Assembly (NCBI RefSeq): GCF_007990445.1
Contig: NZ_AP019841.1
Coordinates: forward strand, 496,001-560,000
Direction: 5' to 3'
From: Leptotrichia wadei
Lineage (GTDB): Bacteria; Fusobacteriota; Fusobacteriia; Fusobacteriales; Leptotrichiaceae
Length of the DNA stretch: 64,000 bases
This document shows positions 25,321 through 32,445 of the stretch, in pieces. The first letter of the stretch is position 1. Each line of letters starts with the position of its first letter. The notes under the pieces are model-generated. The model was not told the origin of the DNA. It saw nothing but the letters and a program-made list of their open reading frames with translations, and made no database searches. The position numbers and the translations under genes were made by a program.

Positions 25321-25941
25321 ATGGAACAGGGGAATAATAATAGGGTGAGAAATATTCTGATAGCAGTTTTAATTGTTTTAATAACAGGGACAATTTTTAG
25401 TATCGGATTCTATATTTTTTCTACTCAAAGTAAAATGGCGAGATTGGAAAAAGAAAGGGAACAAAAGCCAAATATAGTGCAAGATCCAAATATGATTTCA
25501 ATAAAGTCGGTAAAACCAGAAGTTGCTAACAGTCAAAAAAAGGACTCATATAACAATACTCAAAGTAGACCGAAAACTATGTATGAAAAAGCAATGATAA
25601 ATAGAATGGCATCAGTTGAAAATGAATTAAATAGTTATACGCCTGATAATACTTCTTCTTGTGATGAATATGTAGGCTATCGTGTATCTTTACATAATAA
25701 ATGGGATAATGAATTAAATCAAATATATAAAATGTTAATGGCAAGCTATCCAGATTCACAAAAGAAATCCCTTAAAAATGAAGAAATAGCTTGGATAAAG
25801 GAACGGGAAAGAACAATAGATGGAATAAGAAGCGAGGCATCTGATGACTGTTCGGCAAATATAGAAATTGAGAACAGGGAAATTGATACGATAAAGGCTA
25901 GGGCAATAGAATTGGCAGAAAAATACGATAGATTGAATTAA
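25321..25941 (+). CDS. Membrane-anchored LprI-like (DUF1311) protein
   Basis: The 206-residue protein has one membrane segment at residues 11-31 and an outside part. Residues about 105-195 look like the lysozyme-inhibitor LprI/DUF1311 domain: a Cys (SSCDEY), WDNELNQIYKMLM, EEIAWIKERE and a second Cys (DDCSAN) that probably form the conserved disulfide. In other bacteria this domain can inhibit lysozyme, but many members have no known role. It lies 13 bases before the GrpE-like gene and heads the accessory Hsp70 locus, so an envelope-linked role is plausible. Confidence 0.7.
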   Translation: MEQGNNNRVRNILIAVLIVLITGTIFSIGFYIFSTQSKMARLEKEREQKPNIVQDPNMISIKSVKPEVANSQKKDSYNNTQSRPKTMYEKAMINRMASVENELNSYTPDNTSSCDEYVGYRVSLHNKWDNELNQIYKMLMASYPDSQKKSLKNEEIAWIKERERTIDGIRSEASDDCSANIEIENREIDTIKARAIELAEKYDRLN

Positions 25942-25954
25942 TGGAGTGATAGAG

Positions 25955-26752
25955 ATGAAATTTTTTTGGAATTCAGATGAAAAAGGTAAATCGGAGGGGA
26001 AAAGAGAATCTGAAGAAAAGGATGAGTTAGAAAAAACAGACAATTCAGAAGAAGAAATGAAACTGGAAAATGAACCTGGACAGGCGGAAGAAATTAAAAG
26101 TGATGAAGTGGATAAACCTGTAGAAGAAAAAGTCGAAAAGGAAGAAAACGGAGAAGAATTAGAATCAGAAACTGCTGAACAAGAAGAAGCAGATAAGAAC
26201 GATGATAGTAAAAATGATGAAAATAAATTAGAAAAGATTTTGAGAAACATTGAAGATATTGATGGAAAAGTTGAAGTGCTAAATGATTTATTTTTGAAAA
26301 AGATTCAAAGTATTGAATTTGAAAAAAAGACGACAGATAGACTTTACAAGGAACTTCAGGAATATAAAAATGATATGTATTTTCAGCTCATAAAACCTGT
26401 TGTGATGAGTTTGGTAAGTTTGAGAGAAAGTATGAAGAAAAATTTGAAGAGTTTTGGTGTGATGTCAGAAGAGGAAAAATCAGAAATACTTCAAAGTTAT
26501 ATTGAAGAAGTGGAAATTATCTTGGAAAACAATGATATAGAGATTTATGAAACTAATATAGAAAATGACAGTTATGTGGATGTAAAAAAACAAAAAATAA
26601 TAAAGAAAATTGAAACACCTTATGAACAGCTGCATGGAAAAATAGAAAATGTTTTGAGCAGCGGTTATAAATATAAGGATAAAATTATTTCGCCAGAAAA
26701 AGTTGAAGTAAATATTTATAAAAAACCAGAAGAAGATTTGAAGGGAGAATAA
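25955..26752 (+). CDS. Acidic GrpE-like protein
   Basis: Residues 1-90 are extremely acidic and low in complexity (Glu, Asp, Lys, Ser). After them comes a helical segment (EVLNDLFLKKIQSIEFEKKTTDRLYKEL) and a compact C-terminal part (VKKQKIIKKIETPYEQLHGKIENVLSSGYKYKDKIISPEKVEVNIY) laid out like GrpE: a long dimer helix, then a beta-type head. GrpE proteins release ADP from Hsp70. The call rests on this layout and on the Hsp70 gene starting two bases after its stop. The ATG at 25955 has GGAG at eight bases and is preferred to a GTG three codons upstream. Confidence 0.6.
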   Translation: MKFFWNSDEKGKSEGKRESEEKDELEKTDNSEEEMKLENEPGQAEEIKSDEVDKPVEEKVEKEENGEELESETAEQEEADKNDDSKNDENKLEKILRNIEDIDGKVEVLNDLFLKKIQSIEFEKKTTDRLYKELQEYKNDMYFQLIKPVVMSLVSLRESMKKNLKSFGVMSEEEKSEILQSYIEEVEIILENNDIEIYETNIENDSYVDVKKQKIIKKIETPYEQLHGKIENVLSSGYKYKDKIISPEKVEVNIYKKPEEDLKGE

Positions 26753-30581: not shown

Positions 30582-30687
30582 ATGAAAGTGTTCATAATTT
30601 TATTTGATTTAAAGAAATTTGATTATACTTTAATTAGAAAAAATATTTTGGATAAATATTTAGTAATAAATTAAAGGAGAAAAAGAG

Positions 30688-32445
30688 ATGGCAGACAGAA
30701 ATGAAATTGAATACAACTGGTATGAAATACTGGGACTGGAATATTATCCAGCTGCTGAAGAAAATGAGGAGAAAATAAAAGCTAGAATAGAGGAAAAAAG
30801 GAAGGAATGGTTAAGAAAAGAAACTGATCCGTTAAATGGTACAAAATATAAAAATTATGGTGAACTTTTAAAACATGGTGTTATAGAAAGCGAGATGCTT
30901 AATAGCGCAAAGAGAAAAGAATTGATTAAAGATGCACAAAATAAGCTGTTTGAGCCAATAGATAAATTTTTGAGATTTTTTGAGGGAAGCATAATTACAT
31001 CAGAAAAAATACAAGAGATAGCAGCTAGGATTAAAAGAAAAGAAGATTTGATTAAAAAACGAATCGAAGAAAATGGCAAGATAGAATTGTATGATGAAAA
31101 AATATACAAAAATTATTGTGAATGTATTAATAGAAAATATGAATTTTTAACAGTTGAGCAAAATTTGAAAATATTGGATAAGAAGAATTTGTACGAGTTT
31201 CTTGATTCTGAAAATATAAATGCTGGAAGATTGGATGCAAGAGGAATTATTGAGGCTATTAAAGAAAAAAGAAAAAAATTAATAAAATCTGATAATGAAA
31301 CTTCGGCTAAGAAAAAGTTATTTACTGAATGTGAGAAGATATTTGGAAACGGTGCTAAAAGGAATGAATATGATGAATATCTTAAATATTTGAAATATAT
31401 AGAAGTAAAAAAAGAATTGGAAGAAATAAAGTCTATTTATGAAATAACTGATAAGCAAATTTCAACTGAGAAGAGTGACAATTTTAATAATATAAAAAAT
31501 ATACTGAGCAGTGAAAAGGAAGCTAAAAATGTATTTATAGGATTTTGTGAAGCAAATAAAATATCTTATAATATTACAAACAGTTCAAATGGATCACAAA
31601 AAGCGTATGAAAATGATAATAATGATACGAAAAGATTAAGTGAAGCTGCTTGTGACAGGGCTTTAAATGCTATAGAAAACTTTAGATTTAATGAGGCTGT
31701 AAAATATTTGGATGAAGCAAAGAACTATTGGTCAGAAAATCCACGGATAGAGATGATAAGGAAAAGAATGAGTGAAAAGGCTGGGGGAAGTTCTGGTAAT
31801 AATTATAGTGGTAATGGTCAAAATAGAAATAATACTGGTAATAATTATTATAATAGTCAAAATGGAAATGCTGCTACTAATAGCAATAGCGGGATTAATG
31901 TTATATTAATAGTTATTGGAGTAATACTTTTTATAATAATGGCAGTTATGGTGTCTTTGACAGTGAAAAATTTATCAGGAAAAATTTATGGTGATCATGA
32001 AACAATAAATGGATATACATATTTAAAGGATGATTCAAAAACTTCAACTTTTGAAGATACTACCACTCCATGGTTAGATAAACTTTATGTAGATGGAGTG
32101 AATTTTTATAGTAATCCTGAAGTGAATAATGCTTATAAAGATTATTGCAGTTTGGTTAATGAAATAGAGAAAGTCGATAGAGGGATAATGCCAGGAACTG
32201 ATAAAAGTTTTAGAGAGGTAACTTATACAGAAGTTGATGATGCATATAAATATTACTTAAAAGAAATCAGTCAGATTAGACAAATTTTTGATCTTTATAA
32301 TGGGAATGATGATGATTTGGAAATGAATGCAGGATGTAATTATAGAGGAACGAAATGGAATACTAATAATAATAAATATAAAGCTGCTAGTTTTAAATCT
32401 AATGAAATAACAGAAAGATGGAATCACTACGCAGGAACAATTTAA
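30688..32445 (+). CDS. Membrane-anchored J-like co-chaperone, paralog 2
   Basis: This 585-residue protein is a tandem duplicate of the gene before it. The first 330 residues are nearly identical in sequence and order: WYEILGLEYY, two degenerate J-like units without HPD, and the ALNAIENFRFNEAVKYL hairpin. The linker here is Asn/Gly-rich (NNYSGNGQNRNNTGNN), the membrane span is the same type, and the outer domain has diverged but keeps REVTYTEVDDAYKYYLKEISQIRQ and NAGCNYRGTKWNT. The unequal divergence suggests that the cytoplasmic part is held by the Hsp70 partner and the outer part is free to specialise. AAAGGAGAAAAAG precedes the ATG. Confidence 0.7.
   Translation: MADRNEIEYNWYEILGLEYYPAAEENEEKIKARIEEKRKEWLRKETDPLNGTKYKNYGELLKHGVIESEMLNSAKRKELIKDAQNKLFEPIDKFLRFFEGSIITSEKIQEIAARIKRKEDLIKKRIEENGKIELYDEKIYKNYCECINRKYEFLTVEQNLKILDKKNLYEFLDSENINAGRLDARGIIEAIKEKRKKLIKSDNETSAKKKLFTECEKIFGNGAKRNEYDEYLKYLKYIEVKKELEEIKSIYEITDKQISTEKSDNFNNIKNILSSEKEAKNVFIGFCEANKISYNITNSSNGSQKAYENDNNDTKRLSEAACDRALNAIENFRFNEAVKYLDEAKNYWSENPRIEMIRKRMSEKAGGSSGNNYSGNGQNRNNTGNNYYNSQNGNAATNSNSGINVILIVIGVILFIIMAVMVSLTVKNLSGKIYGDHETINGYTYLKDDSKTSTFEDTTTPWLDKLYVDGVNFYSNPEVNNAYKDYCSLVNEIEKVDRGIMPGTDKSFREVTYTEVDDAYKYYLKEISQIRQIFDLYNGNDDDLEMNAGCNYRGTKWNTNNNKYKAASFKSNEITERWNHYAGTI

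Follow-up and report, generated by a model that had tools for sequence, protein, structure and literature searches.

Five intact open reading frames (ORFs) on the + strand span positions 25321–32445 of a 64,000-nucleotide stretch of the Leptotrichia wadei genome (the window; positions 496001–560000 of contig C1 in the source genome, G000, which is AT-rich and 2.4 Mb in size). They encode an LprI-like protein, a GrpE-like protein, a short Hsp70 (P0003), and two tandem J-like membrane proteins, 1 (P0004) and 2 (P0005). To judge from their sequences, the Hsp70 is catalytically intact but has no lid, and it is accompanied by a GrpE-like factor and by a membrane protein in which a conserved J-like region is combined with an exchangeable outside domain. 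With a probability put at about 0.5, the set derives from the Hsp70/GrpE/DnaJ branch of the predicted DO-GTPase (GAP1-N2) conflict systems, without the GTPase and tethered to the membrane, with the Hsp70 acting as a nucleotide-timed switch.

An Hsp70 with intact catalytic motifs and an altered docking site

Relatives of the set were surveyed in 96 genomes of the order, with 13 congeners; 14 P0003-type Hsp70 loci were found in 10 congeners, and the counts given below refer to these loci. P0003 (549 aa; 26754–28403, + strand) matches PF00012 with an E value of 8e-110, and its assignment is backed by a residue table, an alignment, and a tree. The nucleotide-binding domain (NBD) has the phosphate 1, phosphate 2, and adenosine motifs, and D8, T11, K70, E171, T199, and D201 are kept in 14/14. 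The beta part of the substrate-binding domain (SBD-beta) is present, but the alpha-helical lid is absent, the protein stopping about 18 residues past the lid start; it is thus an atypical member of the family by architecture, while its membership by NBD holds. An insert of about 45 residues precedes a remodelled linker, in which the VLLLD of DnaK is replaced by IVIAT or a similar sequence.

In the DnaK-DnaJ complex, D35 of the HPD motif bonds R167 and Q378, H33 bonds L391, P34 touches P419, and K48 of the J domain bonds D477 (PMC8215388). Compared with E. coli DnaK, the window family carries R167E in 14/14 and Q378H in 13/14, with E206R, D393T, and D477K as further changes. Eight canonical Hsp70s (of the DnaK, HscA, and HscC types) share 91 invariant positions; 21 of these are changed in the window family, none of them among the catalytic or nucleotide positions checked. 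The changed positions include four of the five J-contact/linker positions (hypergeometric p 0.009, a generous value, since this set of known contacts plus linker was fixed after R167E had been seen). As the HPD motif is absent from the J-like proteins (see below), both partners have lost their usual contact. The set had been taken in the first-pass annotation for a standard Hsp70-J-GrpE machine, a view left without support by the replacement of the J-docking residues and the absence of HPD.

The J-like membrane proteins and their ectodomains

J-like protein 1 (605 aa; 28764–30581, + strand) is homologous to J-like protein 2 (585 aa; 30688–32445, + strand), its tandem duplicate, and to proteins of congeners; the two window copies are 86% identical in the cytoplasmic part and 57% in the ectodomain. 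From the N- to the C-terminus the layout comprises unit 1 (residues ~10–85; 28791–29018 in protein 1, by alignment), a helical spacer, unit 2 (residues ~162–232; 29247–29459), a conserved 'IFIGFCEANKIPYN' helix, a TPR-like stretch, an Asn-rich linker, one transmembrane (TM) segment, and the outside domain. Each window protein has one strong TM segment, at 29925–29981 (+; hydropathy 3.25) in protein 1 and at 31900–31956 (+; TM prediction) in protein 2. The HPD motif is absent from both units in all aligned congener members, 'KSDNE' standing at the HPD loop of unit 2 in protein 1, and Pfam DnaJ (PF00226) matches none of 19 J-like members.

Aligned by hhalign to a profile built from five canonical J domains, unit 2 of P0004 matches end to end (score 28.3, E 1e-3). 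In the controls, run with a slightly wider J profile, unit 2 scores 21.9, which neither the best of the 60 column shuffles (18.4) nor the reversed control (12.2) reaches; unit 1 scores 15.9 against the canonical profile, which is not above the shuffles. AlphaFold models of P0004 residues 1–330 and of unit 2 display the expected helix pattern, but with pLDDT of only 42 and 47. The earlier description of two J-like membrane proteins is thus borne out as to the membrane segment, one in each, and has sequence support as to J-likeness in unit 2 only; neither a Pfam DnaJ match nor HPD was found.

The type A ectodomain (30126–30578 in protein 1, + strand), with its conserved YC...GC pair, also makes up short proteins of its own, which carry an anchor or a signal-like segment at the N-terminus. 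Because it stands alone in N-terminally anchored proteins, it is placed outside and the J-like N-terminus inside, which supports a topology with a cytoplasmic N-terminus and an outer C-terminal domain for the J-like proteins. In other members the C-terminal part is an unrelated type B domain, a YARHG domain (L070), Sel1/TPR repeats (G077), or nothing (L071/L076/L080); ectodomains are thus swapped between species while the cytoplasmic J-like region stays conserved. An LprI fold was considered for the type A ectodomain and rejected (hhalign E 0.85). The role in secretion once suggested for the set found no support, and envelope sensing by the set is possible.

Three type A ectodomain proteins are found in tandem in each of L072:3902-5963, L076:7264-9320, and L079:9132-11191, within about 5–15 kb of the second Hsp70 locus. 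Integrative elements (L058:2159-13230, L059, L060, L061, L084, L086) carry AbiEi/AbiEii, helix-turn-helix, Rep_1, and integrase genes, and their variable cargo slot holds type A ectodomain proteins, with an LprI-like protein in L058.

Probable relationship to the predicted DO-GTPase conflict systems

Although no description of this exact gene set was found in the literature library searched, the set is not devoid of described relatives: an Hsp70 + GrpE + DnaJ-FNIII theme was described in GAP1-N2-type DO-GTPase systems (Kaur et al. 2020, eLife, PMC7159879), and one such system is carried by the congener G073. It consists of DO-GTPase1 (E 2e-7), a GrpE-like protein, a lidless Hsp70, an Hsp70-vWA protein, and a J-like protein with a zinc ribbon and FNIII, and further holds a second GTPase and a weak GAP1-M match; recombinases adjoin.

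In the NBD tree the window Hsp70 stands apart from DnaK, HscA, and HscC, and groups with the Hsp70s of the DO-GTPase systems of G073 and Aerococcaceae L087 (93/86; 96/97 with the second one). At positions invariant in the eight canonical Hsp70s, changes common to the window family and the DO-system Hsp70s are N13 to Y/F, Q150E (17/18), F232W, T416 to E/Q, and the loss of R167; the lid is also missing in the first DO-system Hsp70. The gene order GrpE-Hsp70-(Hsp70)-J recurs in G073 and Aerococcaceae L087, where it is accompanied by DO-GTPase matches and weak GAP1-M ones. The J protein of these systems, like that of the window, starts with N(W/Y)(Y/F)EILGL(E/D), has a second J-like unit, and ends in variable C-terminal parts; unit 1 resembles its N-terminus (40% over 40 columns, E 1.7e-4).

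The GrpE-like protein, with a long acidic N-terminal tail (25955–26752, + strand), matches Pfam PF01025 with an E value of only 0.038 and NCBIfam GrpE with 1.4e-4, both below the curated cut-offs. By hhalign it aligns with canonical GrpE (E 9e-4) in 137 columns that take in the 'GYKYKDKIISPEKVEV' wing at the C-terminus, and with the GrpE of the DO-GTPase system in the C-terminal segment (E 7e-5); it is likely to be a remote GrpE homologue.

The GrpE-like C-terminal segment, the J-like N-terminus, the shared Hsp70 changes, and the same gene order are marks of kinship besides the tree, and together they argue, with moderate confidence, for a common lineage of the Hsp70, GrpE-like, and J-like proteins with those of the DO-GTPase/GAP1-N2 system. 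The window locus differs from these systems in having no DO-GTPase, GAP1, second Hsp70-vWA, FNIII, or zinc ribbon, and in a J-like protein that is membrane-anchored with an outside domain. DO-GTPase1 (PF19975) has no match in the source genome or in 11 other congeners, GAP1 not having been searched genome-wide; as no DO-GTPase is matched, the set would be a derivative or relative of the DO-GTPase/GAP1-N2 systems rather than a member.

The G073 system (L083:3556-16413) is about 90% identical to that of Aerococcaceae L087, with recombinase and integrase genes beside it, which suggests a recent transfer between phyla. A search with the DO-GTPase J protein through the class to which L088 (uncultured Ruminococcus) belongs, with 196 genomes, gave two matches only, so that the parent system is sampled narrowly.

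Conservation of the set in the genus

Among the genomes surveyed, P0003-type Hsp70s (61–96% identity) are confined to this genus, where they occur in 10 of 13 congeners. Gene maps place a J-like gene next to the Hsp70 in 14/14 loci and a GrpE-like gene in 10/14; on these counts the core is Hsp70 plus a J-like protein, usually with a GrpE-like protein. The joint conservation expected of the gene set therefore extends to these three genes, to the last of them incompletely, and fails for the LprI-like gene, which is linked to the Hsp70 in only 2/14 loci, those of the window and G074. What was upheld is an accessory Hsp70 linked to, and conserved with, membrane-anchored J-like partners that have cytoplasmic N-termini and variable outside domains.

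The LprI-like protein (206 aa; 25321–25941, + strand) has an N-terminal TM anchor (residues 12–30) with the LprI domain outside, and matches PF07007 with 38.5 bits against a cut-off of 22 (E 1.6e-9). It had been listed as a core part; it is one among many LprI-like proteins in the family, and by its rare linkage it is an add-on of the window lineage, outside the core. An integrative element in G078 carries a 53–55% identical LprI-like copy, next to a protein that consists of the ectodomain only. Searches of the contig collection, IMG/VR, and PLSDB with P0003 and P0004 found no relatives.

Two locus types coexist in three genomes (G068, G069, G072). In L081 of G077 the J-like gene has only the second J-like unit and sits after an M48 protease gene. 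The accessory Hsp70 has HtpX-like M48 membrane proteases as neighbours at L071:14322-15911, L080:210-1928, and L081:9533-10507, and at least one family member has a YARHG-like C-terminal tail (L071:129-1706). In L082:3445-11331 of G077, a P0003-type Hsp70 adjoins an array of four J-like proteins with long Sel1/TPR tails, after which come several related ORFs from a different family (c12).

The half HsdS and HsdM-like pair

A pair of genes for a half HsdS and a 376-aa HsdM-like protein adjoins the Hsp70 in 10/14 loci, in both paralogous locus types, the second gene being broken in G070. The half HsdS, of 195 aa, was recognised by PF01420 (E 3.6e-9) and PADLOC Specificity_I (1.8e-15). The 376-aa neighbour is similar to the C-terminal portion of HsdM (3.5e-4); both methyltransferase motifs are missing in all nine copies, so no restriction is implied. 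Whole or damaged, the HsdM-like gene occurs in 9/10 genomes with the Hsp70 and in 0/3 without it. The pair members overlap by about 10 bp (L068:12412-14119, L069:12622-14329, L071:7032-8742, L076:16996-18706, L080:7580-9290, and others).

In the source genome the pair is located away from the Hsp70, at C1:968.6–972.3 kb (L102:8664-12345), near the flanking genes c81/c82, which precede the Hsp70 in G076/G078. A TnpB-type ORF, 91% identical to window positions 42454–43698, interrupts its HsdS-like gene, and the neighbouring HsdM-like gene is still open. On the simplest reading, the Hsp70 set relocated in this genome and left behind a pair that degenerated.

Comparison with other Hsp70 systems

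The source genome also has a canonical DnaK. With DnaK/DnaJ/GrpE the set shares the catalytic NBD, SBD-beta, and a GrpE-type factor, and differs from it in the missing lid, the remodelled linker, R167E, the HPD-less partners, and the membrane location. The second accessory Hsp70 of the source genome groups with E. coli HscC (100/100) and is encoded beside two HPE J proteins of the DjlB/DjlC kind at C1:1.328–1.333 Mb. E. coli HscC partners the membrane J proteins DjlB/DjlC and has been argued to work without GrpE (PMC8215388); in this system, as in the window set, the accessory Hsp70 is short and is paired with two membrane J-type proteins. The differences are that HPE is preserved in DjlB/C, which are anchored by a C-terminal tail, and that HscC has R167, belongs to another clade, and has no dedicated GrpE. 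An HscC/DjlB/DjlC identity of the window set was rejected by the tree, the absence of HPE, and the loss of R167.

Pam16/Tim16-type J-like proteins lack HPD. They resemble the window proteins, by features rather than by sequence comparison, in having HPD-less J-like regions near the membrane, while each window protein unites two HPD-less units and an outside domain. CoCoNuTs, McrBC-related Type IV restriction systems with an Hsp70 (PMC11090510), similarly place an Hsp70-like protein in a restriction-related context; the window has no McrB/McrC, and its catalytic motifs are intact, those of the CoCoNuT Hsp70 being degenerate.

It is also worth mentioning that the HscC-type locus (L053:5315-16857, C1:1.327–1.339 Mb), with its two HPE J proteins, contains DKNYY-repeat proteins, and that such proteins flank the window-type Hsp70 too, in L071/L076/L080.

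Proposed mechanism and rival explanations

As to function, which we infer from sequence, the tails of the J-like proteins would keep the Hsp70 at the inner membrane, docking it in a way that dispenses with the HPD-R167 contact. A change felt by the ectodomain would alter the docking, hence the ATP/ADP state of the Hsp70, and the GrpE-like protein would reset it; instead of serving as a general folding machine, the Hsp70 would switch a variable output, or set a threshold for it, timed by its nucleotide state. Its probable partner for this output would, in most congeners, be the adjacent DNA-recognition pair of half HsdS and dead HsdM; in the window lineage this pair is elsewhere and broken, and an LprI-like protein has been added. 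The fullest version of this proposal is rather doubtful: the Hsp70 and its J-like partner would have co-evolved, each giving up its side of the HPD-R167 contact in favour of other docking, and would form a transmembrane switch with exchangeable outside sensors, the output of which goes, in most species, to a Type I restriction-derived DNA-recognition pair. The HPD-Hsp70 contact is regarded as near-universal in Hsp70 biology, and a family with the ATPase intact, the contact gone on both sides, and a GrpE-like protein usually retained offers a natural test of alternative Hsp70 control. The predicted DO-GTPase/Hsp70 conflict systems also become testable in a smaller form, of three or four genes and without the GTPase, with the sensor placed outside the cell, where experimental swapping is feasible.

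Derivation from the DO-GTPase systems is favoured by the constant core with variable ends: Hsp70 and J-like protein always together, with several unrelated ectodomains or none. Several observations weigh against it. The GrpE-like gene is lacking at 4/14 Hsp70 loci; the NBD tree was built from few rows, its branches are long, and the tree program itself issued a warning, while a smaller Hsp70 tree is nearly uninformative on the join to the DO-GTPase-system Hsp70s. The J fold of unit 2 is weakly supported and that of unit 1 unproven, and the p value for the docking positions is, as said, generous. The HsdS/HsdM pair, absent from G074 and broken in the source genome, is not a universal output. 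Apart from a weak '2TM effector' match over the TM segment, PADLOC matches none of the five window proteins, which counts equally against a role in defence.

The readings that follow overlap with this one and with each other. Membrane proteostasis of the HscC/DjlB/DjlC kind, in which a dedicated Hsp70, enlisted by membrane J proteins, would fold or monitor clients in the inner membrane or envelope through a modified but ordinary J cycle, is rather doubtful. The partnership of E. coli HscC with DjlB/DjlC (PMC8215388) speaks for it, as do the HtpX-like M48 membrane proteases adjoining the Hsp70 in L071, L080, and L081, and the DKNYY-repeat proteins common to window-type loci (L071, L076, L080) and the HscC-type locus of the source genome. 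That genome, however, has a true HscC (100/100) with two HPE-type J proteins; R167 is kept in HscC and HPE in DjlB/C, both being lost in the window set, which also has a GrpE-like partner, HscC being argued to be GrpE-independent (PMC8215388). The complete change of ectodomain between species fits proteostasis poorly as well. Anti-phage or anti-plasmid defence, with the ectodomain or the DNA-recognition pair sensing invasion and the Hsp70 switch triggering an effector, is unlikely, notwithstanding the kinship with DO-GTPase conflict systems, the linkage to half HsdS/dead HsdM, the presence of ectodomain A and an LprI-like protein on integrative elements that also bear AbiEi/AbiEii, Rep, and integrase genes, and the existence of Hsp70-bearing McrBC relatives, the CoCoNuTs (PMC11090510). 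No recognisable killing effector is present at the window locus, the conflict role of the parent DO-GTPase systems is itself a prediction, and, the HsdM motifs being missing, nothing points to restriction. Very improbable is a group of lineage-specific paralogues in decay without a coherent joint function: the patchy distribution (10/13), the relocation of the locus, and the broken partner pair in this species agree with decay, but purifying selection disfavours it (five intact ORFs, dN/dS 0.07–0.19 and an Hsp70 96% identical against G074), as does the constant company of Hsp70 and J-like genes in 14/14 loci.

Gene models

The arrangement of five genes on one strand with the first three closely spaced, as described in the first-pass annotation, was confirmed: the gaps between these three are 4 and 1 bp if the GrpE-like ORF starts at GTG 25946. 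The ATG at 25955, following GGAG, is likely the better start. The J-like genes begin 360 bp downstream of the Hsp70 gene, at ATG 28764, and a start of J-like protein 1 at the upstream TTG 28725 is unlikely. In a promoter scan, sites were no commoner than in shuffles. By comparison of the window with G074, all window genes of the set are under purifying selection, with dN/dS values of 0.07 for the Hsp70, 0.13 for the GrpE-like, 0.15 for the LprI-like, and 0.19 for the J-like genes.

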